In this document: positions 6,358 through 32,541 of the stretch, one piece after another
Layout: each line of letters opens with the position of its first letter
Numbering within the stretch: position 1 is the first letter of the stretch
From: Marinosulfonomonas sp.
GTDB taxonomy: Bacteria; Pseudomonadota; Alphaproteobacteria; Rhodobacterales; Rhodobacteraceae
Direction of reading: 5' to 3'
Length of the DNA: 38,580 nucleotides
Assembly (NCBI GenBank): GCA_022712735.1
Contig: JAFLKA010000098.1
Location: 1 to 38,580, forward strand
Notes under the pieces: model-generated
Seen by the model: only the letters and a program-made list of their open reading frames with translations
The model's database searches: none
Told to the model about the DNA's origin: nothing
Program-made: the position numbers and the translations under genes

Positions 6358-6526
6358 GACCAGACTCCACCAAATTGCTGTGGCGACGGGAAAACCACCA
6401 ATGGAAATTAACACTCTCAGCAGGCTCGGTGTTGTTCATTCGCATAAAAGTTTACTCCAGTAACTTGCACGAATCATGGGCTCGACGCGCCCCGATGACT
6501 GCATATTACCGACTGCCCCTGCCGTG

Positions 6527-6674: not shown

Positions 6675-7682
6675 TTACCCCGCCGCTTTGCGGTGTTGGT
6701 TCGGGGATATGCCCTGCCATCGCTGGAAGGCGCGGCTAAAAGACGAAACATCGGCATAGCCGAGGGAAAATGAAATGTCCGAAATCGATTTATTCCCCTG
6801 CTCCAGCATGGTCAGAGCAGAGCAACACCGCACATCTTCAACTAAACCTGAATACTCAATTCCCTGAGACTTGAGGCGCCGCTGTAGCGTACGAGTGCTG
6901 TATCCAAGTTGCTCAGACACCTTCTCAATCTGAACTGTATTCGCTTCTAGGCCCTGCTTGATCTCAGCGGTCACAACCGATTTCAAATTGTGCCATTGAG
7001 GCCATTTCCCTGATTGTTTGGTGAGGTGATCCTCTAGTATCTGGCATAGATCTGGGTCGTGATTTGTAAGAGGTGTGCGGGCCGTTCCATTGGTAAATTC
7101 CAACCCGTCGAATTCATGGTCAAACAGAATTGGTGCCCGAAAATACTGTTTCAGCCGATTGATGTTTTGCGGTTGTGGTCTTCGCAGATAAACTTTCAAC
7201 GGGTCCCATCCTGATCGATGCGTTTGCCTGATCCAGCGAACGTAGAATGCCAGTTGCGCCTCGGTCACAAGGCTTAAATCCTGACCGTCAGCATCCAAAA
7301 AATCCAGAGTCAGCAGATTTGTATGACCAAGTGACCGGACCCGAGCCAGGGTTGCCTGCTGGATGCAACGGGTAAAGGACGACACAAACGCAATGCCCTC
7401 CCCAATCGTCTTGGAATAATAAAGGCGCAGTCCAAACGCGCCATACTTGCGGACATCTGCCCTTTGCCCCATTTGCAATCCGAAATGGGGGTCTTGCAAT
7501 TCCTCTGCGGCCAAATTTAACAACGATGTGTAGTCGCGCAAACTGATCGTGGCATCGGGCGAGTCCAGCGTTGATATATCCAGCCCAAGTTGTTGAAAAA
7601 GCGCCTTTGCGTCGCCCCCCATTTCCTTGAACACCGTTGAAGCCGAGTGCATAATGCAGATGTTTGCAATAGGCCGCCTCAT
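6675..7682 (-). CDS. AraC family regulator with arabinose-binding-like N-terminal domain
   Basis: This 335-residue protein fits the OruR/ArgR-like AraC group, with an N-terminal Arabinose_bd domain (PF12625, about residues 15-195) and a C-terminal HTH_18 domain. HTH landmarks are VSEQLGYSTRTLQRRLKSQG and ISFSLGYADVSSFSRAFQRWQG, the latter very close to the AraC signature. The ATG at 7682 has GGAG eight bases upstream; a longer TTG-started frame to 7754 is less likely. It diverges from the TolB/TPR gene at 7970, with a perfect palindrome between them. Its target is probably the minus-strand locus downstream or an unlinked pathway; no inducer can be named from sequence. Confidence 0.85.
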   Translation of the reverse strand: MRRPIANICIMHSASTVFKEMGGDAKALFQQLGLDISTLDSPDATISLRDYTSLLNLAAEELQDPHFGLQMGQRADVRKYGAFGLRLYYSKTIGEGIAFVSSFTRCIQQATLARVRSLGHTNLLTLDFLDADGQDLSLVTEAQLAFYVRWIRQTHRSGWDPLKVYLRRPQPQNINRLKQYFRAPILFDHEFDGLEFTNGTARTPLTNHDPDLCQILEDHLTKQSGKWPQWHNLKSVVTAEIKQGLEANTVQIEKVSEQLGYSTRTLQRRLKSQGIEYSGLVEDVRCCSALTMLEQGNKSISDISFSLGYADVSSFSRAFQRWQGISPNQHRKAAG

Positions 7683-7840
7683 ATGTCGCGCTCCAAAAAA
7701 GGACTCCTTGCCAGCCGGTTTAGCGGAAGTGTTTGACGCCCCCTTTGCCAACAATATTCAAGCACCGACCGCACTACTCATGCGCTCGGAATTTCTATGC
7801 TTTATCGGTCAGTTGTCAGGATGAAACTGCATGGGGCTAG

Positions 7841-7877
7841 CCAAGTCACGTTAATCTATGTTATTAACGTGACTTGG
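7841..7877. promoter_or_regulatory. Perfect 15-bp inverted repeat between divergent regulators
   Basis: CCAAGTCACGTTAAT (7841-7855) is followed by a 7-base spacer and its exact reverse complement (7863-7877). No T-tract follows on either strand, and the site lies between two outward-facing genes (ATGs at 7682 and 7970). It therefore looks like an operator for a dimeric regulator rather than a terminator. The protein that binds it is unknown. Confidence 0.55.
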
Positions 7878-7969: not shown

Positions 7970-9592
7970 ATGGGTAAGCCGACAAAACTTGATGTTAACG
8001 ATCAACTGAACAGAATACTTGGTAGCGAGGGATTCTCTGCGGCTAAACGGTTGTCCGATTTCCTGGAGTTCATCGTTTCTGAAACACTTGAAGGGCGCGC
8101 TGCCACATTGCAGGCATACCCCATCGCGCTGGAAGTTTTTGGCAGGGGCCCCAATTTTGATCCGCAGTCAGACTCGATTATCCGGGTTCAGGCAGGACAG
8201 CTTAGACTACGCCTTGAGGAATTCTACGCTCAGTCCGGGCACAGCGATCCGGTTCTGATACGGGTCCCCAAGGGGGGATACGTTCCAACATTTACCCACC
8301 AAGAGGTGCCGGCAACAATCAAAACGACGGTAGCTGAAGTTGGAGATTCCACACCATCCATTATCGTTTTGCCGTTTAACAATCTGAGTGGGGATACCAG
8401 CAAGGACTATTTCAGCCTTGGCCTGACAGAAGACATCATTGCGGCGCTGTCCTGCTTTCCGGACGTGAAGTTATACGCGCGAAATTTGACTTCCACAAAG
8501 CGTAGTTTGGATGCCGACACTATTGCGCTTGCGACAGACCTCAATGTTCGGTTCCTGCTCGAAGGCAGCGTTCGGCATGGGTGCAATGGGCTGCGAATTT
8601 CTGTGCGGCTTGCGGAGGTTGAGACCCGCAAGATACTTTGGAACAAGGCCTATGACAGAGGCCCGGTCGCGGCAGATATTTTTGACGTCGAGAACGAAAT
8701 TGCTGTTAGTGTTGCCGCAGAGATTGCTGGCCCCTCTGGTGACATCACAAAGCACGACCTCCTTAAGGCTAGCCGCAGACCGCCTGAAAACATGAGCGCT
8801 TATGATGCCGTGCTTCGCGCATATGCCTATCGTCGCAATCCCAATAGCAAAGAACATGGGGAAGTAACGACACTGTTGAAAGCTGCCATTAAAAGTGAAC
8901 CGAATTACTCTGAGGCTGCAATGATGCTGTCCCAGATGTACTTGGACCAAGGGCGTATGTTGTTTAATATTGAAACAACGGTGGAAGATGCCGTTGATCG
9001 GGCGATAGAGCTTGCAAAGCTGGCGATAAAACTCGCCCCGAAAAATTCGGTCGCCTGGCACTTGTTATCTTTGGCTTATTTCCAAATACGAGCGTATCCA
9101 CTCGGTCAACAGGCTGCGGAGCGTTCGCTCTCGCTGAGTCCAAATCACCCGGATACGCTGGCGGATTTCGGATTTCAGTTGTGGTCAATGGGGCAGCGCG
9201 AGCGCGGACTTGAAATGGTCGCGAAGGCTTTGTCTCTCACACCTTTTCCACCCGGAATATACTATACTTCTTATGTACAGGAAGAATATCTTAATGGCCG
9301 CGACGAACAAGCATTGCGATACGCGCTAAAGCTTGGAGCCGATGATCTCTTTTGGAAGTATATTCTCCTGGCTGCTATCTACGGACAATTGGGCCAGGCA
9401 GGCGATGCCTGTGATGCCCTCAACAAAGTTAATCAACTCAATCCGGCATTTGGACAGTTAGCAATTGGAGTGATGGAAGACTGGCCATTCCCACCTGCCT
9501 TCACAGCCCGCCTGATTGATGGATTGAAAAAGGCTGGCTACAAATTTTCAATTGACGCCAAGGTCATGAAGCAATTTGTATCCGAGCGGTAG
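7970..9592 (+). CDS. TolB-like/TPR protein with N-terminal regulator-like domain
   Basis: This 540-residue protein has three parts. Residues ~8-110 match a domain common in alphaproteobacterial TPR and cyclase-like proteins (FxxSxRLxxFLxxIVxxTLxGR, then FDPQSDSIIRVQAGQLRLRLEEFY and RVPKGGYVPTF). This domain has been viewed as a winged-helix or signalling module, but its role is not settled. Residues ~128-255 are a TolB-like N-terminal domain (IIVLPFNNLSGD, DYFSLGLTEDIIAAL). Residues ~275-490 are tetratricopeptide repeats. No cyclase catalytic domain and no transmembrane segment is evident, so it is likely soluble. It lies 90 bases before the arginine-deiminase-like gene, whose promoter carries the TACAAT boxes. 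A role as the activator of that regulon is plausible but unproven. Confidence 0.7.
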   Translation: MGKPTKLDVNDQLNRILGSEGFSAAKRLSDFLEFIVSETLEGRAATLQAYPIALEVFGRGPNFDPQSDSIIRVQAGQLRLRLEEFYAQSGHSDPVLIRVPKGGYVPTFTHQEVPATIKTTVAEVGDSTPSIIVLPFNNLSGDTSKDYFSLGLTEDIIAALSCFPDVKLYARNLTSTKRSLDADTIALATDLNVRFLLEGSVRHGCNGLRISVRLAEVETRKILWNKAYDRGPVAADIFDVENEIAVSVAAEIAGPSGDITKHDLLKASRRPPENMSAYDAVLRAYAYRRNPNSKEHGEVTTLLKAAIKSEPNYSEAAMMLSQMYLDQGRMLFNIETTVEDAVDRAIELAKLAIKLAPKNSVAWHLLSLAYFQIRAYPLGQQAAERSLSLSPNHPDTLADFGFQLWSMGQRERGLEMVAKALSLTPFPPGIYYTSYVQEEYLNGRDEQALRYALKLGADDLFWKYILLAAIYGQLGQAGDACDALNKVNQLNPAFGQLAIGVMEDWPFPPAFTARLIDGLKKAGYKFSIDAKVMKQFVSER

Positions 9593-9601
9593 CGCCGTTT
9601 T

Positions 9602-9652
9602 TACAATTCCTCGCACGCACTACAATATTCAGAATATCTGTATGCCTATACT
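9602..9652 (+). promoter_or_regulatory. TACAAT-N13-TACAAT box promoter of the deiminase-like gene
   Basis: TACAAT at 9602-9607 and again at 9621-9626 are 19 bp apart, followed after exactly 20 bases by a -10-like TATACT (9647-9652). The predicted transcript start is near 9659, about 24 bases before the ATG at 9683. The same arrangement in the same orientation precedes two other transcription units in this window (11956-12006 and 19254-19304). The second box sits where an activator would touch RNA polymerase near -35. Confidence 0.6.
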
Positions 9653-9682
9653 AAGCGCATGCACTATTGATGGAATTACGAC

Positions 9683-10912
9683 ATGAATAAATTTGGTGTA
9701 TATTCCGAGGTTGGCAGATTGCGCAAAGTCATGATTTGCCGTCCCGGCCTTGCGCACACTAGGCTAACGCCCCGAAATATGGCTGCCCTGCACTACGAGG
9801 ATCAGCCATGGGTTTATCAGGCCCGCATTGATCATGCGGATTTTCAGATGAAGCTGGAGGAACGGGGCGTCGAGGTTCTGGAATTCCACACGGCCCTAGA
9901 AGAAACCGTTAAAAACGCTGAAGCGCGCCAATGGCTACTGGACCGGATAATTACAGAGAACCACGTCGGCACCGGTATGCTGCACGAGTTGCGGGCCTGC
10001 CTGGACGAAATGGACGCGGAAGCTCTCAGCAACTATCTGATCGGCGGGATTGCCGTTGATGAGCTGCCCTTCAAGATTTCAGAGAATCTCAAAACTTATC
10101 TTGGCGAGACAGAGTTTGTGATCCCACCGCTGCCGGGCATGCAGTTCATGCGCGATAGCAGCAGCTGGATCTATGGCGGTGTCATCCTTAACCCAATGTC
10201 CAGCACGGCGCGCAAGCCCGAGACGTTGCTGGTGACAGCCGTTTACAGGTTTCATCCCGATTTTAAGGAACAAGGCTATGAGACTTGGTGGGGTGACCCG
10301 AGTTTCGAGCATGGGTTGGCTACGATCGAGGGCGGTGATGTCATGCCATTGGGAAAAGGGATTGTCCTGATTGGTGTGGGAAAACACACTAGCCAGCAGG
10401 CCGTGGGACAGTTGGCAAAGGCACTGTTCGCCAAAGGTGCTGCCGAACGCATCATATCGTGTCAGTTGCCACCGGCCGAGACCGGTTCACATCTGAGCAA
10501 GATATTCAGCCTTTGCGACCGGGATATTGCAACCGCCAACGTTGCGGCCTGTAATAGAATCAATTGCGTCAGCCTGCGCCCTAGTAACCGAGAGGGGAAG
10601 ATTGATTTTCACATTGAATCCAAACATTTTTTCGATGTTGTGGCCGAATGCCTTGGCATCAAGAAACTCACTATTGTTCCCACCGGTGAAGACGGTTTCA
10701 ACAAACAGCGAGAGCAGTGGGACGACGGTAACAATGTCGTTGCAATCGAGCCGGGTGTTGTCGTGGCCTATGACCGGAATACCTATACCAACACTCTTTT
10801 GCGCAGCGCGGGATTGGAAGTGATTACAATTTCGGGTTCTGAACTCGGGCGCACGCACTCTGGTGGGCATAGCATGACATGTCCGATCTGGCGCGACGCT
10901 ATAGACTTTTAG
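9683..10912 (+). CDS. Arginine deiminase-like protein
   Basis: Arginine deiminase converts arginine to citrulline and ammonia in the cytoplasm and can raise internal pH. The 409-residue length is normal for ArcA. Conserved features are FMRDSS (Asp158), EGGD (Glu216, Asp219), His270, [19 protein letters not shown] and a C-terminal GGHSMTCP with the nucleophile Cys400. One key position is altered: the usual HLD around the catalytic histidine is HLS here (Ser272), so the second catalytic Asp (Asp280 in the Pseudomonas enzyme) is missing. No arcB, arcC or arcD lies nearby. It may be a deiminase with altered kinetics or specificity, or another amidino-group-modifying enzyme. Its promoter carries the TACAAT boxes. 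The ribosome binding site is weak. Confidence 0.8.
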
Positions 10913-10935
10913 GGGCTGCTCCAGCTGAGAGCTGA

Positions 10936-10954
10936 ACCTTACGCCAAGTAAGGT
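10936..10954 (+). terminator. Weak hairpin after the deiminase-like gene
   Basis: ACCTTAC / GTAAGGT form a perfect 7-bp stem with a 5-base loop, 24 bases past the stop codon. There is no T-tract, so it may be a weak or Rho-assisted end or a 3' stabilising hairpin. The rest of the gap to 11171 shows nothing recognisable. Confidence 0.35.
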
Positions 10955-11171
10955 AATTCATCGCTGTTTCGGCCAACTATGCTCGCTAGAAATGCGGCAA
11001 TGAGCCCCTCCAAGGGGTGAGGTGCGTACGGCTAGCTCTGGTGAGCAGTCCAGATAGATCTGAGCCTTTGCTCTGGTTAAAGAAGGGCCGCCAACTTGAC
11101 GATACCGGCAGGCCCCTCACACTAACAGGAATATAGAAAGAAGGCATCAGGTTCACTAAACCTAATGGCGG

Positions 11172-11468
11172 CTATACGCCAGCCATCGCATCAACCGCCA
11201 ACATTTCGGGGTTTTCGGTGCAGAGCGCATCGAAAGCAACGACAGTAGCGACTATACCCTGACCCGAAAACTCCGAGGAACCCGCTTCGCCGTTTTTATA
11301 CCCGATCAGCATTGCGGTGACAAAATTTGCGTCGTCGTCAGGCAAAGTAATAACATCCCAGCAGCTCATTTCCTTGAGATCGAAGGGATCAGAACTTGGG
11401 GTTTCTTGTGCGTTTAGCGGCAATGCCAGCAAAGCTGTACCGGCAAGAATTTTGATTAATTTTAGCAT
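11172..11468 (-). CDS. HdeA/HdeB-like periplasmic protein
   Basis: This is a 98-residue secreted protein with an N-terminal signal peptide (about residues 1-20, cleavage after LNA). The mature part begins with DPFDLKEMSCWDVITLPDDD, which fits the HdeA family pattern. It has exactly two cysteines (Cys36 and Cys83), 47 residues apart, almost the spacing of the disulfide in E. coli HdeA (48). HdeA is an acid-activated periplasmic chaperone. Alphaproteobacterial relatives are poorly studied, so the acid role is inferred. It follows the glycine-zipper gene by 29 bases and probably shares its transcript and TACAAT-box promoter. Confidence 0.75.
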   Translation of the reverse strand: MLKLIKILAGTALLALPLNAQETPSSDPFDLKEMSCWDVITLPDDDANFVTAMLIGYKNGEAGSSEFSGQGIVATVVAFDALCTENPEMLAVDAMAGV

Positions 11469-11497
11469 GTTGTAGCTCCTAATTGTTGCGAAACAGC

Positions 11498-11857
11498 TTA
11501 GCGATTGCGCATACAGTGTTCGTATTCGTTTCGGTATATCCGCGCCTTGCGATTATTCCCGCGATTGGCGTTCGAAATGCCGCCAAACACGAGCCCAATG
11601 CCAGCCGCCCGTTTGCGATCACGACGGCTCCCGCCAAGAATGCCGCTAATGATTGCTCCGCCAATCGCACCGTTGATGGCCCCACCGACTACATTACCCG
11701 AACGACCGCGATAGCCGCTCAGATCTTTAGCACGTTCCTTGCAATAAGCGCGATAGCCTTGCGCCTCGGCTGATGTCGACAGCAGTATTTGTGATGGCAC
11801 GAGAAACGATGCCAGCACTATTCCAGTCATCAAGCGACTTGATTTACGTTGAGTCAT
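11498..11857 (-). CDS. Small exported glycine-zipper protein
   Basis: The start at 11857 (GGGAGACACT just upstream) gives a 119-residue protein; a longer open frame to 12034 has no good start signal. It has a signal peptide (residues ~10-32, ending SAEA) and a glycine-zipper stretch at 54-76 with Gly in a GxxxG-like pattern. An Arg-rich segment (SRRDRKRAAG) comes next, then a second Gly-rich stretch, and the C terminus is YEHCMRNR. Two cysteines (39 and 115) could form a disulfide. Glycine-zipper proteins sit in or near the outer membrane, but no specific function is known for this one. It heads the operon with the HdeA-like gene. Confidence 0.75.
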   Translation of the reverse strand: MTQRKSSRLMTGIVLASFLVPSQILLSTSAEAQGYRAYCKERAKDLSGYRGRSGNVVGGAINGAIGGAIISGILGGSRRDRKRAAGIGLVFGGISNANRGNNRKARIYRNEYEHCMRNR

Positions 11858-11955
11858 AGTGTCTCCCTTCGAAAGTTTCAGTTCTTTTTTGTAGCGCAAA
11901 CTGCTTCCTCCTCTTTTGTTATAATTGGGTTCTGACGCAAAATTTTTGAAGCCTG

Positions 11956-12006
11956 ATTTAACCCCTCGGTGGGAGGGAAGTATTGTAAATGCATTGTAGA
12001 ATTGTA
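11956..12006 (-). promoter_or_regulatory. TACAAT-box promoter of the glycine-zipper/HdeA-like operon
   Basis: On the minus strand TACAAT occurs at 12006-12001, 11998-11993 and 11987-11982. The outer two are 19 bp apart, as at 9602 and 19280. After exactly 20 bases comes a -10-like TTAAAT (11961-11956). The bases after the second outer box (ACTT) equal those at the RND promoter. The third, inner box is specific to this site. It implies a 5' leader of about 90 bases before the ATG at 11857. Confidence 0.6.
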
Positions 12007-12070
12007 GAATTGAATTGGTGCTGTTCAGCTCCAAGCGTTCATTAGCCGTCAGAAATTGAGGAAGACGTCT

Positions 12071-13141
12071 TTAATCGTCACAGCTTACTTGCGCCGACTG
12101 AATGCAAGGCGCAGGAGAGCTCTCCCCAGCGTTTTTCAGCCGGTTAATATCTGCGATCAGTGTCGGGGATGTTGCTAATGCAAAATGGTTGAACTTGTCT
12201 CCATCAGTAAACTCTGACAAATCAACGATGTCGATTTCGTCACTATTGATTTTCGAGATATCCATATTATCACCCAGGCGCACATTCCCCCCCGCTATCA
12301 AGCGCATGAGCCCCAAGGCTTTGTCTTCCTTTGAGCCAAGAATGACAAAAGGCTGTGGCAATGGGTTAATATCGGCAATCTGACTGTTGAAAACATCGAT
12401 ATCAATATCCGGTGACAGCAAAAGTACCAATGCAATTTTCGATCTGATCCTCGGATTCCCGTCCCGATATATCTGCCGCAGCGCTTCCAACAACACTTCC
12501 GTGCCAAGCGAATGCGCGACCAGGGTAATTTCCTGGGCGTTTGAATCTGCCAATAATTCCAGCAACTCCTCTAACCCGTTGCGGGCAAATAGCGCACTAT
12601 CGCGATCATAAGCATAAAACTTAAGGCGAGCAGCCGAGGGCCAAGAATAAAGCACAGCCGGGACCTCGGAATTATAGTCTGACTTAAGCTGCGCTATCCG
12701 ATAGAGTGCCTCAGCATAATTGGTGTTAAAGCCATGCACAAATACAGTGACCTCGCGCTTGCCATTCTGGTTGATTGCCCCCGGAGACATGATTGCCCGG
12801 TTCAGGCGCGATTTGAAATCAGCGGCCGGTATTAATATGTTTTCGCGCACGATTGCGAAATCCGTTTCGGGGTCAATATCGCCTTTTGGCCATTCTATCT
12901 TGCCCGCCTCATGGGTCGGCGGAATGGAAATATCATAGGTGCCTAAACTCAGGTCAGATGATCGTCCTGTCCCGAAGGTGGCATTTGGCTCGGGCGTACG
13001 ACTGGTCGCAACAAAGACCTGTTCGACGTTTTGAGCCACTTGCGGTGTCGAAAGAAAACCAAGCTCGCCACGTGGCCCTGCACAGGCGCTGGCCAGCGCT
13101 ATCATCACAATCGCAACAGTCTGAACCTTGAAGAATTTCAT
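12071..13141 (-). CDS. DUF900-family alpha/beta-hydrolase lipoprotein
   Basis: This is a predicted lipoprotein with lipobox LASA-C (Cys20 is the lipidation site). The 356-residue protein matches the DUF900 (PF05990) alpha/beta-hydrolase family: VFVATSRTP near residue 42, the oxyanion segment FVHGFNTN at 134-141, the nucleophile elbow AHSLGTE with Ser211, the acid region LLLSPDIDID near 240 and NHFALA near 320. Substrate is unknown; an envelope esterase or peptidase-like role is inferred. Its ATG overlaps the K+ channel stop codon (ATGA), so translation is probably coupled. It is the last gene of the RND operon. Confidence 0.85.
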   Translation of the reverse strand: MKFFKVQTVAIVMIALASACAGPRGELGFLSTPQVAQNVEQVFVATSRTPEPNATFGTGRSSDLSLGTYDISIPPTHEAGKIEWPKGDIDPETDFAIVRENILIPAADFKSRLNRAIMSPGAINQNGKREVTVFVHGFNTNYAEALYRIAQLKSDYNSEVPAVLYSWPSAARLKFYAYDRDSALFARNGLEELLELLADSNAQEITLVAHSLGTEVLLEALRQIYRDGNPRIRSKIALVLLLSPDIDIDVFNSQIADINPLPQPFVILGSKEDKALGLMRLIAGGNVRLGDNMDISKINSDEIDIVDLSEFTDGDKFNHFALATSPTLIADINRLKNAGESSPAPCIQSAQVSCDD

Positions 13142-13560
13142 GACGAGTCCTTTAAAAGTTCAGAAAAATAGCCAACCAGAAACGCAGTGCTGATCCCGAA
13201 GACCAACACACCGGTGACAGATTCGATAGCTGCGAAAATGCGCAGGTCACTGCCGAGCACAATATCGCCATAGCCAAGCGTGGTATACGTGACCATTGAA
13301 AAATACAGCGAGTCGGCAAAATCCGGCAAGGCCCCGAGAGCCCAATAGCTGCCGGCCCAGAAATAGAACTGCACAACGTGGGAAAACAATATGCCCAGAA
13401 AAATCAAAATGGTAAGTTTGAAATATTTATTGCTCTGGAGCTGCGGTTTTTCGGCATAGGATTTAATTCTCTTCACCAGTTCGATCAGGATAAAAATGTG
13501 CCAAGTGGCGCAAAGACACAAGATTCCACTGGCCAGAAATATTTGCGCCAGCACTCCCAT
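13138..13560 (-). CDS. Small ion channel, K+ selective (Ion_trans_2 type)
   Basis: This 140-residue membrane protein has three hydrophobic segments (about residues 4-28, 48-68 and 108-132) and a pore loop between the second and third. The pore loop carries TTLGYGD at 93-99, the classical potassium selectivity filter. There is no regulatory RCK domain, so gating is unknown. The protein should form a tetrameric inner-membrane K+ channel. It starts 9 bases after the outer-membrane factor gene and overlaps the DUF900 gene by 4 bases, placing a K+ channel inside an efflux operon. Confidence 0.85.
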   Translation of the reverse strand: MGVLAQIFLASGILCLCATWHIFILIELVKRIKSYAEKPQLQSNKYFKLTILIFLGILFSHVVQFYFWAGSYWALGALPDFADSLYFSMVTYTTLGYGDIVLGSDLRIFAAIESVTGVLVFGISTAFLVGYFSELLKDSS

Positions 13561-13569
13561 CAGTCCGGC

Positions 13570-14988
13570 CTAATTGGTTACCGGCTGAACAACCGGCACA
13601 GTCATCCCCCAATCTCCACCAAGTGCAACGTTCAAATCGACAATCTGGTCAAGCCTTTCACGGTTCAGAGTTTGGTAATTGCTATTGAGCGAGAACACTT
13701 TTTGCTCAATCTGCAAAACATCCTGTAGTTCCACTTCGCCCGCCTGATAGCTAATCCGAATAAGACGCAGAGCCTCGCGGGCCTGCCCACGGGCGCGCTC
13801 CACAGCATTGTGGCGGCCACTTAGGACACGGCCCTGATCCAGTTGCTGCTCGACCTCTTGAAAAGCAGTCAAAGCCGCCGTCGCATAGGCTTGCACGGCT
13901 TGCTGCTGTTTCAGGGTCGCATCTTCGACTTTAGCCTTTAAGGAACCTGCGTTGAAAATCGGTGTGAGGATGTTTCCTGCGATGCTCCAGCCCAGATTGC
14001 CAGAATTCAAGACGTTCCCCAATGACGCAGAGCTGCCCTTCGCAGAGGCCGATAGGTTAAAAGCCGGAAGCCGCGCGGCCTGGGCCTGATTGATCCCTTC
14101 AAATGCAGCTGCGACTTTTCGTTCCGCTGACAACAAATCCGGGCGGCGTTCCAGCAAGGACGAAGGCAGGCCTGCTTTTGGTTGGCGTGGGATGCGCGGA
14201 AAAGATTTGCGCAGGCTCAGATCGGCGCTTGGATAGCGCCCAAGTAAAACCTGCAGCCCACGTTCTGCAGTGCGTATTTGCCCGCGTGTTTTGATTAAGG
14301 TTCCCTCGGCAACGGCCAAATCCGAATTGATCAGAGATATGTCCTTGTTCGAGGATAAACCCGCATCGACCTGCGCACGCACAACCGTTTGCAAGCCAGC
14401 CAATGAATTGCGCACCAGTTGTGCCACCCATGCTTGTTGGCGCGCCTCAAGTGCGGCGAAATAGGCTTTGGCTACACTACCCGCAATCGAGAGCTGCGAG
14501 TAATGCAGATCGGCCTGCGCGACATCGCGCTGAAACAAGGCGGCACGACGTCCTGAACTTAAGCGCCCCCAGACATCAACTTCCCATTGGGCTTGCAGGC
14601 CAGCTGTAATCGCTCCCGCAGGCCCTGCTGTGCCCACAACATCGGATCGTCCCGCCCCAAAAGTGCCGTCCAGCGATGGATAACGCGATGCGTTGGCCTG
14701 AATGATGAACGCATTGGCCCGTTTGACGTTCAGCGCGGCGGATTTCAGATCGTGATTATGCGCGATGGCCTCATTCACCAGTCGGGTCAGCACCGGATCA
14801 TTAAAGGCAGAAAGCCAGCCGTTCAGAACCGGTCCCGAAAGATTTGCGGCCCGCCATGTCGTGGGCACTTTGCCAACTTCGACTTTTGTCTGAACACTGG
14901 ATTGCTGCAAAGCATCTATCACCGGCGCGCAGGCAGTCGACAAAAGCAGCGCCAGAATGGCGGCGGATTTAGGGAAGGCAAGGGTCAT
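13570..14988 (-). CDS. RND efflux outer-membrane lipoprotein (NodT/OprM type)
   Basis: This is the outer-membrane factor of a tripartite efflux pump, forming the TolC-like exit duct. The 472-residue length is typical. The N terminus is a lipoprotein signal (LSTA-C, Cys20), and two homologous OEP repeats follow. Landmarks are GWLSAFNDPVLTRLVNEA, SRYPSLDGTFGAGRS, ERRPDLLSAER and AYATAALTAFQEVE. Its ATG shares one base with the pump stop codon (TAATG), so it is translationally coupled to the pump. Confidence 0.92.
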   Translation of the reverse strand: MTLAFPKSAAILALLLSTACAPVIDALQQSSVQTKVEVGKVPTTWRAANLSGPVLNGWLSAFNDPVLTRLVNEAIAHNHDLKSAALNVKRANAFIIQANASRYPSLDGTFGAGRSDVVGTAGPAGAITAGLQAQWEVDVWGRLSSGRRAALFQRDVAQADLHYSQLSIAGSVAKAYFAALEARQQAWVAQLVRNSLAGLQTVVRAQVDAGLSSNKDISLINSDLAVAEGTLIKTRGQIRTAERGLQVLLGRYPSADLSLRKSFPRIPRQPKAGLPSSLLERRPDLLSAERKVAAAFEGINQAQAARLPAFNLSASAKGSSASLGNVLNSGNLGWSIAGNILTPIFNAGSLKAKVEDATLKQQQAVQAYATAALTAFQEVEQQLDQGRVLSGRHNAVERARGQAREALRLIRISYQAGEVELQDVLQIEQKVFSLNSNYQTLNRERLDQIVDLNVALGGDWGMTVPVVQPVTN

Positions 14989-17900
14989 TAAACGATCTCC
15001 CTTTCAGAAGTTTTGATGCGGAAGAATATAGCATAGAGCGCCGGGATAACGACCAGCGTCAGAACTGTTGCAAAGCTAAGCCCAAAGATAAGCACCACCG
15101 CAAGTGATCTGAAAAATGCGTCCGTTAGCAATGGGAATACCCCCATAACGGTGGTTATTGATCCTAACATAACCGGACTTAGTCGGCTGGCAGCAGAATC
15201 GACAATCGCGTCAAACCGCGGGATGCCATCGGCAATTTTCTGATCCATTTGGTCAACCAGAACAATGGCGTTTTTAAGCATCAAACCAGACAGGGACAAC
15301 ACCCCGATGATCGCCATAAATTCAAGCGGCGTGCCCATCACCAGCAATCCGAACACAACCCCGATGATCGACAGCGGCAGTGTCAGGAAAATCAACACGG
15401 GCTGGCGAATGGCGTTGAACAACATCATTACCACCAGCACCATTGCCGCAATCCCCATTGGCAGCGCCGAGGCCAGACTACCATTGGCTTCCTGGCTGTC
15501 GCCAAATTCGCCTTTCCATGTCAGCTTGTATCCCGCTGGCAAGGGGATCGCCTCGATTTGCGGACGCAGACGTTTGAACAGATCACCTGACAGGATATTG
15601 GGACCGGGGTCGGTTTTTGCCGTAATCGCCAAAACCTTGTTGACCCGCAGCAATTTACCATCGCGCCATTCCGTTTTGAATCCGTCAACCAACTGGCGCA
15701 GGGGAATAGCTTCGCCCGAAACGCTGCTGGTCACCTGAATAGTACCGATCGAATCTACTCCTAGCCGCTCCTTGTCGGGGGCGCGCTCAATTATCGGGAT
15801 CAGCAGGTCGCCTTCGCGGAATACTCCGACAGTCCGCCCTGTGAAGTTCACATTCAAAGCGGCCGAGACATCTTCCCGTGTGACGCCCATACGCCGGGCG
15901 CGGGATTCATTCAGGATTGGCACAATCACGCTGCTGGGCTGACGCCAGTCATCCTTGGTGGAAATTGTGTCAGGGTCATTGGCCATGATGGTCTTGGCTT
16001 GCTGCGCAATATCCCGCAGCACGGCCGGGTCTGGCCCGGAAAATCTGGCGGCGATTTTTGAGCCACCACCTGGCCCAAGCTGAAAGCGCCAGACCTTGGC
16101 TTGAGCATCAGGGAAGTTGGCGGCGATATAAGACTGGATTTCGGGCATCAAGCCGTCAATCATTTTATAGTCTTCGACTTTGATCAAAAACTGGCCATAA
16201 GAGGAGTTTGGCGATTCCGGTTCATAAACCAGCATAAAGCGAAATGTTCCGCCACCAATCAGTGTATTGACAGTGGTCACGCCTTCAATGGTTTCCAGCT
16301 TTTCCTCGATGGTGATCATATCTGCTTTGGTCTGATCAAGGCTACTGCCTTGGGGCAGCCAGTAATCCACAACAATCAGCGGCGCGGTCGACGCCGGAAA
16401 GAAGCCGGGTTTAACATATGCAAACCCGACGACTGAAACCGCAAACAGCCCGACCATGGCGGCAATAACCAGGTATCGGGTTTTGATGACACCTCTGATA
16501 AAGCTTTTGTAGGCCCTGATAAATGCGCCATCGGGTTTGGGTTCCACCGCTTCGCCAGTGCTTTCCTTGAACAGTATGACGCTGAAAAGCGGGGCAAGGG
16601 TCACACCGAACAACCAACTGAATGACAGGGATATCAGGATCACCCAGAACAAATGGCCAGTATATTCGGCGGTCGATCCCGGTGCCAAACCAATCGGCGC
16701 AAAGGCAATGATACCAACAATTGTGCCACCAATCAGCGGCAACCATGTCTGGCTGACAGTCTCGATTGCAATGTCGATCCGGCGTTTGCCCTGCCGGACC
16801 CCAATCAGTATCGCATCCACAACAACAATGGCGTTGTCCACCAGCATCCCCAACGCGATAATCAACGCACCCAGAGAAATACGGTGCATCGGAATGCCTA
16901 CCAATTGCATCACAGCCAGCGTTGCGGCAATGGTGATCAGCAGCACACCGCCAATGACGATAGATGTTCTTATCCCCATGAAAAGGGTCAGGACCACAAG
17001 CACAATCAACACCGCTAATCCCACGTTTACAGCAAAATCGTTGACAGCAAACTCGACGATCGCGCCCTGATTATAATAGTCATGGACCTCCAAACCGATC
17101 GGGCGTTCGCTTTCCATAGCCTCTATCTTTTCTGAGATCAGCTTGCCAACGCGCACAACATTTTCGGTTGTCACCACCGAAACCCCCAGGCCGATTGCCG
17201 GACGGCCATCATACCGCATCAGCATGGATGGCGGGTCTTGATACCCGCGTGTCACCGTCGCAATGTCGCGCAAGCGAATGACACGGCCCTCGGAGCCAAC
17301 CGAAACCACTGTATCTTCCAGATCGGCAATGGTTTCCTGGGTCGGTGGCAGTTGCACAATCAGACGCCGGTTGCCCAGAGCCACAGACCCTGATGGGGTT
17401 ACCGAAGTCTGTTTGGTCAACTGGTCGAAAATCTGGTCAATCGAGGCACCGGTTGCCGCAATCTGTTTCTGTGACAATTCAATGTAAATCGCTTCGGGTA
17501 CATTGCCTTGAATTGCGACCTTGCCAACCCCGCCGATGGTCAGCAGTTCGGTTTTGAGCGTCTTGGCGTAGTCAAGCATTTCTCGCTGGCTAAAGCCTTC
17601 GCTGGTGATCGCGTAATAGATGCCAAAAACATCGCCGAAATCGGAATTGACAAAGGGCTGGCCCGCGTCCGGCGGCATTTTCCCGCCCGCTTCGCTCACT
17701 TTGTTGCGCAGCTTGGTCCAGATGCCCGCCAGCGCCGCCTTGTCAGGTGAAAACGCATATTTGATTTCGACCAGAATAATCGACAAGCCTGCCGTCGATG
17801 TCGAGAGAATTTCCTTGACCTCGGGCATCTGCTGGATCGCGGATTCAATTTTATCCGTGACCTCGTTGGCCACTTCCAGCGGGGTAGCACCGGGGTATTG

Positions 17901-18053
17901 GGTGACAATCTGGGCAATCCGGATGGTAAAATCAGGGTCTTCCAGACGGGGCATGGTCTCATAGGCGGTCCATCCGCCGAACAGGCAGATTAGAATGACA
18001 ATCGTGCTAATCAGGCGGTTTTTAATGGCGAGTGCAGCGAGATTCATGTTCAT
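14988..18053 (-). CDS. RND efflux pump permease (AcrB/HAE type)
   Basis: This is the inner-membrane proton-driven pump of the tripartite system, 1021 residues from the ATG at 18053, the normal RND length; an upstream start at 18068 is less likely. It has an N-terminal TM helix, a PDFTIRIAQI and YPGATPLEVANEVTDKIE porter start, and the TM4 segment LGMLVDNAIVVVDA, where AcrB has the Asp407/Asp408 proton relay. The second half repeats with FGLLVMGTPLEFMAIIGVLSL and LKNAIVLVDQMD. Only one Asp is seen in the TM4 motif (VDN in place of VDD), as in many HAE relatives. The substrate is unknown. It starts 4 bases after the adaptor stop codon. Confidence 0.92.
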   Translation of the reverse strand: MNMNLAALAIKNRLISTIVILICLFGGWTAYETMPRLEDPDFTIRIAQIVTQYPGATPLEVANEVTDKIESAIQQMPEVKEILSTSTAGLSIILVEIKYAFSPDKAALAGIWTKLRNKVSEAGGKMPPDAGQPFVNSDFGDVFGIYYAITSEGFSQREMLDYAKTLKTELLTIGGVGKVAIQGNVPEAIYIELSQKQIAATGASIDQIFDQLTKQTSVTPSGSVALGNRRLIVQLPPTQETIADLEDTVVSVGSEGRVIRLRDIATVTRGYQDPPSMLMRYDGRPAIGLGVSVVTTENVVRVGKLISEKIEAMESERPIGLEVHDYYNQGAIVEFAVNDFAVNVGLAVLIVLVVLTLFMGIRTSIVIGGVLLITIAATLAVMQLVGIPMHRISLGALIIALGMLVDNAIVVVDAILIGVRQGKRRIDIAIETVSQTWLPLIGGTIVGIIAFAPIGLAPGSTAEYTGHLFWVILISLSFSWLFGVTLAPLFSVILFKESTGEAVEPKPDGAFIRAYKSFIRGVIKTRYLVIAAMVGLFAVSVVGFAYVKPGFFPASTAPLIVVDYWLPQGSSLDQTKADMITIEEKLETIEGVTTVNTLIGGGTFRFMLVYEPESPNSSYGQFLIKVEDYKMIDGLMPEIQSYIAANFPDAQAKVWRFQLGPGGGSKIAARFSGPDPAVLRDIAQQAKTIMANDPDTISTKDDWRQPSSVIVPILNESRARRMGVTREDVSAALNVNFTGRTVGVFREGDLLIPIIERAPDKERLGVDSIGTIQVTSSVSGEAIPLRQLVDGFKTEWRDGKLLRVNKVLAITAKTDPGPNILSGDLFKRLRPQIEAIPLPAGYKLTWKGEFGDSQEANGSLASALPMGIAAMVLVVMMLFNAIRQPVLIFLTLPLSIIGVVFGLLVMGTPLEFMAIIGVLSLSGLMLKNAIVLVDQMDQKIADGIPRFDAIVDSAASRLSPVMLGSITTVMGVFPLLTDAFFRSLAVVLIFGLSFATVLTLVVIPALYAIFFRIKTSEREIV

Positions 18054-18057
18054 GTCC

Positions 18058-19125
18058 CTAGTCCTCAAACCGGCGGATCGTCATGCCGTCATGCAGGTAT
18101 GATGCTCCTGCACCAACGATGGTGTCTCCGGCCCCGATGCCGGATGCCACAATTATTTCTTCCCCGATAGAATCGGCGAGCGTAACTTTGGTTTTGGAAA
18201 CCTTCATCGTCGCGGCGTCGACCTTCCAGACATATGTATCGGTGCCATCATGCAAGATCGCCGAGACCGGAACCCGTATCGTCAACACCTTGGCCGCGTC
18301 ACCTGTCCTGCGCAGCTTTGCGTGCAATTCGCCCGTCATCCCCCCCAGAACAATAAGCCCGTCAGGCACCTGAAAACTATATTTTATCTCATATGTCTGA
18401 CTTGCAGGGTCGGCCTCGGGTGCAATTTTATTGAATGTTACTGGGATGCTTATCAAAGGGGCCACATCCAGAATAATCAAAGTGTCTTCCGCCTTGATAC
18501 TGGCCGAGCTGGCGATCATCTGAGCCGGCACATTCACAACCGCTTCAAAATTTGAAACGTTTTGAATGGTGACGACCGCTGTCGATGATGAAATCGTCTG
18601 GAACTGAGCCACATTCACCTGAGAGATAATGCCATCAAACGGGGCAAAAAGGGTTGCATGCCCCAACTGGGTTTTTGCCTCCTCAACCGTTAACAGCGCT
18701 TGATCGCGCGTTGATTTGCGCTCATCAAAAACAGTTTGCGCGATGGCCTTTTGCGCCACCAGTGTTTCCGCCCGCTTGAATTCGATTTGCGCATTTTCAT
18801 ATTGCGCTTGCGCCTGCGCGAGGGTGTTTTTCAGCGTGGCAGTATCAAGTTGCGCAATCAGGTCACCCTTGGCAACCGTCTGACCTGCGATTACCGGCAG
18901 GGAATTGAGCGTGCCGCCGACCAGCATCGTCAGATCGGCTGTGATGCTTGGCTCGATGATTGTGGGCAGTTTGAGGTTTATTACCGGATCAACTGCAACG
19001 ATATCAATCAGTTTGGCAGGGCGTATCGGGGCGCTGGATTCTTGCGAAACCGAAGGGCTGGCAGCCGTTAACGCCACCGATGTAATTGCAATCAACAAGC
19101 TCGATCGCCCGATCCCTAGAAACAT
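18058..19125 (-). CDS. RND efflux periplasmic adaptor (membrane fusion protein)
   Basis: This is the adaptor that links pump and outer-membrane duct. The ATG at 19125 has AAGGAG six bases upstream and gives 355 residues with a signal peptide (SSLLIAITSVALTAASP). The upstream part of the open frame is 5' leader. The first half-lipoyl segment (LPVIAGQTVAKGDLIAQLD) leads into a coiled-coil hairpin (about 100-160, AQAQYENAQIEFKRAETLVAQ). The second lipoyl half (LFAPFDGIISQVNV), the beta-barrel and membrane-proximal domains follow. It is the first gene of a five-gene operon controlled from the TACAAT-box promoter at 19254-19304. Confidence 0.9.
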   Translation of the reverse strand: MFLGIGRSSLLIAITSVALTAASPSVSQESSAPIRPAKLIDIVAVDPVINLKLPTIIEPSITADLTMLVGGTLNSLPVIAGQTVAKGDLIAQLDTATLKNTLAQAQAQYENAQIEFKRAETLVAQKAIAQTVFDERKSTRDQALLTVEEAKTQLGHATLFAPFDGIISQVNVAQFQTISSSTAVVTIQNVSNFEAVVNVPAQMIASSASIKAEDTLIILDVAPLISIPVTFNKIAPEADPASQTYEIKYSFQVPDGLIVLGGMTGELHAKLRRTGDAAKVLTIRVPVSAILHDGTDTYVWKVDAATMKVSKTKVTLADSIGEEIIVASGIGAGDTIVGAGASYLHDGMTIRRFED

Positions 19126-19253
19126 GTCATTCTCCTTAATAGTCCACTGACTCACGCCAAACTGGGCCAGATCGATGGCTGCCCCATACCCATTTGGAAA
19201 TACCGAGCCCAAATAATTGTGAGTTATTCGAGATGAGCAAATCTTGATATTCA

Positions 19254-19304
19254 TAAATGGCGAAATGAGCGTTGTAAGTATTGTAGGGCTACATGCGGAT
19301 TGTA
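19254..19304 (-). promoter_or_regulatory. TACAAT-box promoter of the RND operon
   Basis: Minus-strand TACAAT at 19304-19299 and 19285-19280 are 19 bp apart, and the second is followed by ACTT. A related TTACAAC lies just beyond (19277-19271). After 20-22 bases comes a weak -10-like element (CATTTA or TTTATG, around 19259-19252). The geometry matches the sites at 9602 and 11982. The remaining gap to gltS (to 19588) shows no further gene; the gltS promoter must lie there but is not obvious. Confidence 0.55.
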
Positions 19305-19588: not shown

Positions 19589-20800
19589 ATGATCCCCGAA
19601 ATTGAAATTCCTGCATTTCTAGCTGTGACGCTGGGTTTTATCGTCTTTTTCCTTGGGGCGTTTTTAACCCGTAAGGTGGCTTTCCTAAAAAACTACAACA
19701 TACCTGAACCGGTTTCAGGCGGTGTCGCAGTAGCCATCTGCACGTGGCTATACTTTGTAATGACGGGCACACAGATTACCTTTGATTTGGCTGTGCGGGA
19801 CTACCTGTTGGTTGTTTTCTTTTCTACAATCGGACTGAATGCGCGGATTGCTGATTTGTTTCGTGGCGGGCGGTTACTGTTCATCCTTTTGATCCTGACG
19901 CTGGTCTTTATGCTGCTGCAAAACATCGTCGCTTTGATCGGGGTTACTTTGTTCGATCTGCCTGCAACGATCGCTGTGCTGCTTGGATCGGCTTCCCTCA
20001 TCGGGGGCCACGGAACCGCCATTGCCTGGGGCCCCAGGGTCGAGGAAATTTCCGCATTTTCCGGCGCGGCGGAACTTGGTATTGCTTCGGCCACGCTTGG
20101 CCTGGTTTGCGCGGCCCTGATTGGTGGCCCAATTGCCAAACGTCTGATCGACAGAAATCATCTAAAAGCCGATGAAGATGCGGCCCCTATTGTCGGTCTT
20201 GAATATTCCGAACAGGATGCCGCAGAAAATCAGGTTAACCAGATCAGCCTGATGCGGGGAATGCTCGCCGCCCATATCGCGGTTTTCCTTGGGTTCATTG
20301 CCCATGAGGTTATTGGGAATATGGGAATTAAACTCCCGCTTTTTGTGCCCTGCCTTTTGGTTGGTATTGTCATGTCAAATACGGTTCCGTATTTATTGCC
20401 AAAACTGACTTGGCCTGCTGGCAGCCGTGGTCTTGCGGTGATTTCTGATTACTGTCTGTCGGTGTTTCTGGCGATGTCATTGATGAGCATGAAACTCTGG
20501 TCACTGGCTGAACTTGGCGGGCCTATCGTGATCATTCTCGCGTTGCAGGTTTTAATGACCGTTTTATTTATATCATTCGTCGTCTTTCGTGTGATCGGTA
20601 GCAGCTATCAGGCTGCGGTATTGAGTGCCGGGTTCGCCGGGTTCGCGCTTGGCGCAACGCCAACAGCTATCGCCAATATGTCATCTGTGGCCAAGCGTTA
20701 CGGCCCGGCTCCCCTTGCCTTTATTATACTTCCACTGGTTTCGGCATTTTTTGTGGATTTGGCCAATGCTTTCATCATTCAGTTTTTCGTTGGGCTTTAG
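19589..20800 (+). CDS. gltS: Sodium/glutamate symporter GltS
   Basis: GltS imports glutamate with Na+ across the inner membrane. The 403-residue length equals that of the E. coli protein (401). It has about ten hydrophobic helices in two inverted halves. Family landmarks are NIPEPVSGGVAVAI near residue 36, FFSTIGLNAR near 75, SLIGGHGTAIAWGP near 130 with the conserved pore loop GGHGT, and the second-half loop FALGATPTAIANM near 350. Glutamate import can support pH homeostasis through decarboxylation or osmoregulation, though no glutamate decarboxylase is seen here. It is divergent from the RND operon and stands alone. Confidence 0.92.
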   Translation: MIPEIEIPAFLAVTLGFIVFFLGAFLTRKVAFLKNYNIPEPVSGGVAVAICTWLYFVMTGTQITFDLAVRDYLLVVFFSTIGLNARIADLFRGGRLLFILLILTLVFMLLQNIVALIGVTLFDLPATIAVLLGSASLIGGHGTAIAWGPRVEEISAFSGAAELGIASATLGLVCAALIGGPIAKRLIDRNHLKADEDAAPIVGLEYSEQDAAENQVNQISLMRGMLAAHIAVFLGFIAHEVIGNMGIKLPLFVPCLLVGIVMSNTVPYLLPKLTWPAGSRGLAVISDYCLSVFLAMSLMSMKLWSLAELGGPIVIILALQVLMTVLFISFVVFRVIGSSYQAAVLSAGFAGFALGATPTAIANMSSVAKRYGPAPLAFIILPLVSAFFVDLANAFIIQFFVGL

Positions 20801-21664
20801 GGCTCAAATCAATGTCAATCAAAGCTCCATCGACAATTCGAGCACCAATGTCTGCTTTGGAGAAGTATGAACCGCAAAGTTTATTTGAGTGGATGACCGC
20901 TTCCCGCCCGTTCTGTCGATGCGGCATGTCCGCTTTGGGGCTGGGAGCCGTCATTCAACGTTCGGTGTTCGGACGGCAGTTTTGCGCAGATAGTGTACTT
21001 TGCAAAGTTTGGCGAACGGCCCAATGCCGACCTTGGCCAACTACCAAATCGCGGCAACGCGGCTTTCGCATTGCGGACATTCATAACCAAGCAGAAACAG
21101 CGGAGATTCCAAGTTTTCGCCAAATGTTGCGGTCAGAATAGCATAAAAGGAGTTGCAGAATTTTTTGATCTCCAAAAGAATAGGCAACGTCGTACGAGGC
21201 AATCCGGCACCCGGAGCGTCGGTTTTCGCAATGGTTTCACACTCGGCAAACCCCTGCCAATCTGATTGGCGGATTGGAGCCGATCTCAAAGCGGAAAGGG
21301 CGTGAATTATTGACGCACCCTCCTTGAGTTTCATGACAAAGGGACACAGATCTGACGTATGTGCTTTAACCCCAGCGATGTTTGCAGAAATTACCGCACT
21401 ACGCCAGCAGTATGAAGCCGTGCTGGCGCGAACAGGGATGTGATGGCCTCAGCGAGAAGAAAAGAAAGAGCGGCTCCTGAAGTCAGGGGGTGGAGTTTTT
21501 AAAAATCAGGCAGCAACGATGTAAATAATGACGTGGCTGTGTGGAAAGACAGAATTGCCTCTACTGGCTAAACGTGTAGTATTCCTACGAAGCAGAAGTG
21601 ATATCCATCACCTGATCAAAGGATTATCAATAATTCTCATATGTCCTTCATCAAAGGTATCCTG
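20801..21664. other. Long intergenic region with a repeat copy and a short ORF
   Basis: This gap between gltS and psiE holds no full gene that I can support. It contains a dispersed-repeat copy (20930-21036). It also has a 36-codon frame, 21333-21443 (+), ending EAVLARTGM, which may be the tail of a decayed gene. A hairpin-like CTCCT...AGGGG with a following T5 tract near 21472-21502 is a weak candidate terminator. The promoter of the downstream operon should lie in its last 150 bases. No clear FNR-like site was found there. Confidence 0.4.
20930..21036. repeat. Dispersed intergenic repeat, copy 2
   Basis: This copy has three segments shared with the others. TCCGCTTTGGGGCTGG followed by a CATTC end (20930-20956) and GGACGGCAGTTTTG (20971-20984) recur at 36422-36520. 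CTTTGCAAAGTT, CGGCCCA and ACCTTGG (20998-21036) recur at 620-667. The repeat has no gene and seems to be a mosaic or degraded element. Confidence 0.6.
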
Positions 21665-22192
21665 ATGGTAGATAGCAACGAACCACTTATCGAAAAGCTG
21701 CAGGTTATTATTCATTGGGCGGTGCGCACATTGGCCATACTTATGGTGTTTGTAATCATCATGGGCGTTGTCGATGTAGCGTGGACCTTATACGGCAGAT
21801 TGGTCTCCCCTCCTAACTACATCCTGACCATCAATGATATGCTGGCGACCTTCGGGGCATTTATGGCGGTGCTTATTGCCATCGAAATATTCATCAACAT
21901 CACAGTCTATCTGCGCGAGGATGCCATCCATGTCAAAATCGTCATGGCCACGGCGCTTATGGCCATTGCCCGAAAGGTGATTATTCTTGATCTTGAAAAG
22001 ACCGGGCCTGAATATCTCTGGGGTATTGCTGCGGTGGTTTTTGCTGTCTCGATCGGCTACTGGTTGGTGCTCACCTTGCCACGTTTTGACCTTACATCAA
22101 CGTCAAAAGTGCCGAGGGTGGATAAACAGCCTCATACTAAAACTGCGACGCCGAAGCAAAGAAAAGGTGGCGACAAGCCTTCTGGTGATTAG
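21665..22192 (+). CDS. PsiE family inner-membrane protein
   Basis: This 175-residue membrane protein has about four hydrophobic helices (residues ~20-45, 60-85, 95-115 and 125-150) and a basic C-terminal tail. The sequence pattern (DMLATFGAFMAVLIAIEIF, YLREDAIHVKIVMATALMAIARKVI) fits the phosphate-starvation-inducible PsiE family (PF06146). Biochemical function is unknown; in E. coli psiE responds to phosphate starvation. The ATG at 21665 has AAAGG seven bases upstream and is preferred to the ATG at 21641. It heads the operon, 9 bases before the P-type ATPase gene. Confidence 0.8.
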   Translation: MVDSNEPLIEKLQVIIHWAVRTLAILMVFVIIMGVVDVAWTLYGRLVSPPNYILTINDMLATFGAFMAVLIAIEIFINITVYLREDAIHVKIVMATALMAIARKVIILDLEKTGPEYLWGIAAVVFAVSIGYWLVLTLPRFDLTSTSKVPRVDKQPHTKTATPKQRKGGDKPSGD

Positions 22193-22201
22193 AGGTGACT
22201 G

Positions 22202-25959: not shown

Positions 25960-25972
25960 GGAGGCCATAGCC

Positions 25973-27292: not shown

Positions 27293-27301
27293 GAGGGTAA
27301 T

Positions 27302-28942: not shown

Positions 28943-29018
28943 AGAGCGGTGCAGGGGCGATACTGAGAAGGTGGTTAATGATCCTCAGAATCAACCCTTC
29001 AACCATAGGAGAAACACA

Positions 29019-29516
29019 ATGATCGCAATCAAAACTCTAAAAAAGTCGGCCATGATCGGCATGGCAACCTTGATGATTGGTGCAGGTGGCGCAATGGCAG
29101 ACAGCCATGCGTTTCAGCCAGACGCCGAATTTTTGACCACTTGGCAGCAAACCTATGACGGCCTGCGCGACATGTCCCCGAAGTGGGGCAAGCAGGGCGT
29201 GGATGCTTTCAAGGCCTTGCAAGACGCGGGCGTTCCCGTGCTATTTCTCGATATTCGCACGGCGAGTGAATGGCAAGACGGGGTGATAGAAGGAGCGCTG
29301 CTGATCAACCTGAATGCTTTACCAACCGAAGCAAGCCTCGCCCAATTGCCTGATGATCGCAACACGATTATAGCCGTCTATTGCAAGGCTGGCCATCGCT
29401 CGACTTTGGCCATGACGATGCTGCATCAACTTGGCTACAAAAACGCGATCAGTATGTCAGGTGGGATGGTTGATTGGCAGAAGGCCAACTACCCCGTTGT
29501 GGCTGCGCAAAAATAA
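29019..29516 (+). CDS. Periplasmic rhodanese-like sulfurtransferase
   Basis: This 165-residue secreted single-domain rhodanese starts at 29019 with GGAG nine bases upstream. The signal peptide ends at AMA-DS (residue 27). The rhodanese fold shows FLDIRTASEW near 77 and the active loop YCKAGHRST with catalytic Cys122. Rhodaneses move sulfane sulfur, for example from thiosulfate or polysulfide. A periplasmic one beside a multiheme cytochrome hints at sulfur compounds as substrates or signals, but this is inference. It lies 76 bases past the cytochrome gene and may still be in the operon. Confidence 0.88.
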   Translation: MIAIKTLKKSAMIGMATLMIGAGGAMADSHAFQPDAEFLTTWQQTYDGLRDMSPKWGKQGVDAFKALQDAGVPVLFLDIRTASEWQDGVIEGALLINLNALPTEASLAQLPDDRNTIIAVYCKAGHRSTLAMTMLHQLGYKNAISMSGGMVDWQKANYPVVAAQK

Positions 29517-29623
29517 ATCATCAAAGCAGTTAGCATTCGGTTGTGGGAAAAACGCTGCATGCGTCAAAGCGGTATTAAACAATTCGCCCGCGTATATTGC
29601 GCTGGCGAATAATCTGATGTGGA

Positions 29624-31027: not shown

Positions 31028-31036
31028 AAACAATGG

Positions 31037-32524: not shown

Positions 32525-32541
32525 TCGGAGAAAGCAAAGCG

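Follow-up and report, generated by a model that had tools for sequence, protein, structure and literature searches.

Paired TACAAT boxes precede three transcription units of a Marinosulfonomonas gene cluster that encodes a predicted CadC-like regulator

CadC of Escherichia coli is a ToxR-like acid-sensing activator of cadBA. Boxes of the OmpR/PhoB type are hexamer-type direct repeats read by winged helices, and direct repeats two helical turns apart at the -35 region are a hallmark of the AraC/XylS family. At AraC class II promoters the usual period is 21 bp, with two contact boxes in each half-site and the proximal half-site over the -35 region. We analysed a 38.6-kb record from Marinosulfonomonas sp. 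(contig JAFLKA010000098.1; hereafter the window), for which our own list of 29 genes covers 82% of the length. Three transcription units in the window carry the same upstream direct repeat, TACAAT-N13-TACAAT, and the first repeat follows the gene of a candidate regulator (7970-9592, + strand) that combines an N-terminal domain of ~110 aa with TolB-like and TPR parts. HilA/EilA-type activators, which join a winged helix to TPRs, have the same order of parts. The general kind of system is already known; what would be new is a local regulon that pairs a predicted soluble CadC-like regulator with direct repeats at the uncommon spacing of 19 bp.

Site 1 (9602-9626, + strand; boxes at 9602-9607 and 9621-9626) lies 9 bp past the stop codon of the regulator gene and upstream of arcA. 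Site 2 (11982-12006, - strand; boxes at 12006-12001 and 11987-11982) lies upstream of a pair of genes for small glycine-rich and HdeA-like proteins. Site 3 (19280-19304, - strand; boxes at 19304-19299 and 19285-19280) precedes an operon for an efflux system, a K+ channel-like protein and a DUF900 protein. An original prediction made from the sequence had placed three pairs, 19 bp apart from start to start, at 9602/9621, 12001/11982 and 19299/19280, and all three are exact. Each is intergenic and directed at the next gene (3/3). The claim that the window holds no further pair stands as well, with none at one mismatch and one at two mismatches (560-584, - strand). When three mismatches were allowed, the window gave 21 matches against 25.6 expected, so degenerate copies are not in excess.

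We asked how often such a set arises by chance. Exact TACAAT pairs occurred at a mean of 0 to 0.005 in Markov-simulated windows. Across the 20 upstream regions of the window (3,414 bp), TACAAT at spacing 19 was the sole combination of hexamer and spacing found in more than one region, and it was found in three. Among 1800 simulated sets of 20 upstream regions, 20 reached two regions and none reached three. In addition, A-Y-T directly follows the second box at all three sites. One result leaves room for three unrelated A+T-rich matches: when any hexamer at any spacing from 7 to 40 was counted, 1/60 whole-window simulations yielded three pairs. Set against the 0/1800 for regions read towards the gene and the common A-Y-T, coincidence is extremely unlikely. 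These data indicate that the three boxes truly form one cis-element, shared within a small local regulon.

Two further features of the boxes were noted. A pyrimidine precedes all six boxes; this carries little weight, because it also precedes 6/10 TACAAT found elsewhere in the window. In site 2 a third TACAAT (11993-11998, - strand) stands between the boxes, at distances of 8 and 11 bp. Separately, the two-mismatch pair at 560-584, TGCAAT-N13-TAAAAT, has the next best score in the window and lies ~190 bp upstream of an open reading frame cut by the window start (3-374, - strand).

The promoter architecture is less uniform than the boxes. The original prediction described a constant -10 element at 20 bp (20-22 bp in the third case), and this did not hold: the hexamers at +20 match TATAAT at 5/6, 4/6 and 2/6 positions, and the element is clear at one of the three sites. 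After site 1 there is a -10-like TATACT (9647-9652, + strand); after site 2 there is a weak -10-like TTAAAT (11956-11961, - strand), which does not have the A at position 2. After site 3 the hexamer at +20 is CATTTA, nothing from +20 to +22 exceeds 3/6, and the best candidate is TATGAA (4/6) at +24.

A consensus scan reported weak sigma-70-like pairs partly overlapping the boxes of sites 1 and 3, TTTACA-18-AATATT at 9600-9629 and TTTACA-18-AATACT at 19306-19277. The boxes might accordingly be an operator that overlaps a core promoter of the form TTTACA-18-AATAYT, at which a bound protein would keep the three units repressed until released by a signal. The constant A-Y-T after the second box and the lack of a good downstream -10 at site 3 would both fit repression. 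However, matches of this type are expected by chance (shuffle means of 0.6 and 1.1 per region) and are a consequence of the boxes themselves. Site 2 would yield TCTACA, and the scan reports there a match on the other strand alone. Sigma contacts also leave the constant AT after TACA and the TAC before AAT unaccounted for. We consider repression unlikely.

The genes behind the boxes form a compact cluster. From the left, the order is AraC1, AraC2, the TolB-like/TPR regulator, arcA and the HdeA-like and glycine-rich genes, followed by an operon that runs leftwards from 19125, with gltS divergent from it. arcA (9683-10912, + strand) encodes an arginine deiminase (ADI): PF02274 matches with an E of 1.4e-108 and NF002381 with 475 bits (cut-off 414), while TIGR01078 gives 417 bits, below its stricter cut-off of 489. 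Among named ArcA relatives, those of Ruegeria and Tateyamaria come closest (~67% identity). At the second target, the HdeA-like protein (11172-11468, - strand) matches PF06411 with an E of 4.5e-4 and 20.9 bits, slightly below the cut-off of 22. The glycine-rich protein (11498-11860, - strand) was called a glycine zipper by eye, with a PF13441 score of 10.6 bits against a cut-off of 28.9. The third target comprises, all on the - strand, an RND periplasmic adaptor (MFP; 18058-19125), which is the first gene, an RND permease (14988-18053), an outer membrane efflux protein (OMF; 13570-14988), a K+ channel-like Ion_trans_2 protein (13138-13560) and a DUF900 alpha/beta hydrolase (12071-13141).

The candidate regulator resembles CadC in its predicted structure. 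When its model was compared with known structures, the C-terminal part had a predicted CadC-type sensor fold, a beta-rich subdomain plus a helical bundle. The N-terminal domain is placed as the CadC winged helix is, and in the full model its order of helices and strands fits an OmpR-type winged helix, with a predicted recognition helix at residues 70-88 that includes RVQAGQLRLRL. Like CadC with cadBA, the regulator has as its neighbour a gene of amino-acid catabolism that is linked to acid resistance, in this case arcA. Unlike CadC, the regulator has no hydrophobic segment (maximum 19-residue Kyte-Doolittle mean of 1.13, where its relatives P0007 and P0008 reach 2.5 and 3.0) and is therefore predicted to be cytoplasmic; the single transmembrane helix that joins DNA-binding and sensor parts in CadC/ToxR-like proteins is absent from it. 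Its N-terminal domain also differs in having no Pfam match, PF00486 included. The DNA sites differ too. CadC is described in PMC5430869 as bound to two TTAxxxxT sites that are arranged head to head and lie far upstream, between -153 and -113, whereas the boxes in the window are direct repeats near the -35 region.

The likeness to HilA/EilA-type activators lies in a weak match of NCBIfam NF009037 to residues 124-467, which leaves the N-terminal domain uncovered. We rejected membership of that family because the score, 27.2 bits, is far under the cut-off of 589; general TPR models score higher (PilW, 40.9 bits), and the match may be to the TPRs alone. Those relatives of the regulator that are named at all, among the ones listed, are mostly called adenylate cyclase, TolB-like, TPR, kinase or hypothetical protein. 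Among the open-licence PMC papers listed by searches, none was recognised as giving a binding site for the family, and the TACAAT-N13-TACAAT box was not found in print there either. In one 5.4-Mb genome (G019), 44 stretches match the regulator family, a large expansion in which many matches span the TolB-like/TPR part alone.

We tentatively propose that TACAAT-N13-TACAAT is the operator of this local regulon and that the CadC-like regulator binds it to activate the three units. A regulator dimer would place one DNA-binding domain on each box. The second arcA box would sit at or just above the -35 region, and the bound regulator would therefore recruit RNA polymerase to promoters that do not have a good -35 element. 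The targets switched on would be arginine deiminase (yielding ammonia, and ATP through the ADI route), the two small proteins, one of them HdeA-like, and the RND/K+ channel/DUF900 operon. The signal would probably be acid or another cytoplasmic stress, sensed by the soluble CadC-type part. The original prediction had guessed at a pH or envelope-stress response, and this guess gains from the predicted CadC-like sensor fold; arginine deiminase, an HdeA-like protein, efflux and a K+ channel, taken with such a sensor, would fit an acid or low-energy response. If this is correct, CadC-type sensing has been relocated from the membrane to the cytoplasm. A defined box beside a defined member of a large family is in any case a testable target. 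A broader generalization is doubtful: a class of soluble CadC-like regulators, whose DNA-binding domain ends in K-G-G-Y-V-P and would be of an undescribed type, may read hexamer direct repeats 19-20 bp apart, with box and recognition helix co-evolving, and in this lineage may join arginine deiminase with RND efflux, with K+ flux and with small secreted proteins in one acid/energy-stress switch.

With the regulator as sole bait, we searched 292 genomes of one order (that of G006 and G468, taken as Rhodobacterales; E <= 1e-50, with the best four candidates or fewer scored per genome), and 12 had matches. Stretches of 18-19 kb around all 12 were searched with 28 window proteins. Ten held no other window gene, bar DUF900 in L185; the module is present in the other two. 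In genome G468 (L180) the identities are 31% for AraC2, 34% for the regulator, 40% for the K+ channel, 27% for MFP, 48% for RND, 73% for GltS and 35% for AraC1. In genome G449 (L186) they are 30% for the K+ channel, 24% for MFP, 40-52% for RND (two pieces), 26% for DUF900, 65-71% for GltS (two pieces) and 30% for the regulator. Neither stretch gave a match to the OMF, to arcA or to the HdeA-like and glycine-rich proteins. The G468 contig carries more of the set at a greater distance: another AraC2 relative (38%), a DcuC-type carrier, a permease for amino acids, arcA (64%), arcB- and arcC-like genes, genes of a V-type ATPase, a relative of Abhydrolase_9 (52%) and DUF900 (39%). On the basis of these two genomes, most genes under the boxes appear to move together with the regulator as parts of one module. 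The idea of a local regulon is upheld as regards the shared element of a local gene set, and in part as regards the genes, some of which are co-located with a regulator homologue in two other genomes.

Two observations concern the G468 contig itself. The V-type ATPase genes after the arc genes (L192, 7870-15267) perhaps couple ADI-derived ATP to proton export. A small gene at L180:16838-17164 that looked HdeA-like by eye was unsupported by Pfam and BLASTP.

In a sample of one class (taken as Alphaproteobacteria), the regulator was found at E <= 1e-60 in 4/385 genomes, at best 33-36% identical (top three candidates per genome scored). A scan of genome contigs with the regulator gave no relative. 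A scan with an arcA alignment gave 80 loci, most of which are not close relatives, and a regulator homologue lies near arcA at four of them (L043, L046, L049 and L060, three of them rhizobial). RVQAGQLRLRL is identical in the G468 and window regulators, which are 34% alike as whole proteins. The same letters occur in P0003 and P0004, and P0002 has H for Q. The other helices differ, at the nine other loci read of the 12 (L181 and L188 fall outside) and in the other 33 of the 37 listed relatives read. L071 gave a raw six-frame match to the helix letters.

The near-box in G468 was found upstream of the arc operon: TTACAAT-N14-TCCAAT, with one mismatch and one base longer, is directed at the operon. 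Simulations produced such a pair in the arc region in 14-28/3000 cases on the same strand and 23-43/3000 on either strand, and after correction the near-box is suggestive. Allowing up to two mismatches and spacings of 18-20, there are four pairs in L180 and six in L191-L196, one of them, the G468 arc site, with a single mismatch. The joint conservation of recognition helix and near-box in G468 is our main reason for preferring the TPR protein to AraC2 as the binder; the CadC-like neighbour is the likeliest binder, with AraC2 next.

AraC2 (6675-7754, - strand) is an AraC-family regulator with PF12625 and an AraC HTH by Pfam. The boxes could be its half-sites, a direct repeat with a period of about two turns of the helix that adjoins the -35 region, as at AraC/XylS class II promoters, and AraC genes do lie in the cluster. 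G468 carries two AraC2 relatives in the same cluster (38-39% and 31-32%), and the one-mismatch pair falls in the intergenic region common to one of them and the arc operon. Such a relative occurs at E <= 1e-40 in 1/215 genomes of that order (best nine or fewer candidates per genome scored). However, the period in the window is 19 rather than 21, and the half-site is ~6-8 bp; by eye, about one further position after each box agrees in most of the six half-sites, with no second contact 10 bp on. AraC2 shares the module in G468, whereas G449 has the regulator, RND, MFP, K+ channel, DUF900 and GltS with no AraC2 match in the stretches examined. We regard AraC2 as a rather unlikely binder.

Several results weigh against binding by the CadC-like regulator. 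AraC2 is as closely tied to the cluster in G468, and the main reason for doubting the TPR protein is the AraC2 relative there that is divergent from the arc operon. Foldseek itself ranks six TPR chains above the first CadC entry. A profile of the N-terminal domain aligned with PF00486 domains by hhalign was not significant; a deeper alignment was weak and in register (probability <=8.4%, P = 0.004 one way and 0.056 the other). The single-sequence N-terminal model is poor (pLDDT 58), with strands 52-58 and 69-73 that differ from the full model, and it matches nothing among the families listed by VIA-align. OmpR-type winged helices usually take repeats 10-11 bp apart, not 19, and a good -10 is present at the arcA site alone. 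The exact pair is absent from G468, G449 and all 80 arcA loci, the two syntenic genomes having just the degenerate 20-bp copy at the G468 arc operon. Such a pair occurs in 1/11 oriented upstream regions examined in G468. The pattern TMCAAT-N13/14-TMCAAT, devised after the arc site was seen, has two matches in the whole G468 genome, the arc site among them, and none in G449. Near regulator homologues (rhizobial, Azospirillum and others) 19-bp repeats are not preferred, one part of this check covering 23 upstream regions with members such as L180 not among them; the intergenic hexamer repeats of the 12 regulator loci number four at spacing 19 and three to 30 at other spacings from 9 to 24.

A chromosomal regulator encoded outside the window might instead bind the boxes, the cluster regulators being bystanders; the window, after all, spans 38.6 kb alone. 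Recurrence would be expected of a global element that is conserved, yet the exact pair is at background. The order of G006 (292 genomes) has 13 exact pairs in 13 genomes, at most one each, against 29 by our own count for a reversed-pattern control, and the class of G003 (385 genomes) has 54 in 42 genomes, with at most four per genome (G224, 1.5 Mb), against 63 by our own count for the control. The pair is therefore a general element of neither group. All three window copies also lie within 10 kb. An outside regulator is very improbable.

DUF900 proteins may keep company with the regulator elsewhere. Of 12 DUF900 matches in nine genomes, two have a regulator match at a distance of 6 kb or less, and on S. 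meliloti pSymA a DUF900 gene (33% identical) directly adjoins a regulator homologue; this proximity outside the cluster is suggestive. There the DUF900 hydrolase starts 9 bp after the regulator end. In Sinorhizobium and Rhizobium (L136, L137 and L138), a conserved stretch like CTGTARYYTACGTVGTAWA was seen by eye upstream of a regulator homologue; the S. meliloti copy has divergent genes opposite it, DUF2092 and DUF1254 among them. Other candidates were set aside. RND relatives at L112-L114 (57-59%) have MFP and RND with no match to the regulator, K+ channel, OMF, DUF900 or GltS, and plasmid operons of Croceicoccus and Aurantiacibacter hold MFP, RND and OMF alone. LytTR-type direct repeats were also considered, and no LytTR was found among the 20 window proteins scanned with Pfam, which are part of the window's open reading frames.

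The gap that separates the AraC2 gene from that of the regulator contains an inverted repeat with 14-bp arms, CCAAGTCACGTTAA-N9-TTAACGTGACTTGG (7841-7877). Among 191 sequences (2.46 Mb), the core of this repeat, ACGTTA-N11-TAACGT, occurs again only in the corresponding intergenic region of G468 (L180 8152; L172 is the same place). The repeat probably serves the regulator genes themselves as an operator, and its recurrence would support orthology of the window and G468 clusters.

An Rfam scan of the window gave no match. AraC1 (5440-6414, - strand) is a second AraC-family regulator, and the sodium/glutamate symporter GltS (19589-20800, + strand), divergent from the third target, is a member of the conserved module. 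Farther on, 21641-36043 is a stress-type island with PsiE, an M50 protease, a rhodanese and DUF808 by Pfam, NhaA by search and, by eye, cation-ATPase-like, multihaem-like and universal-stress-like proteins.

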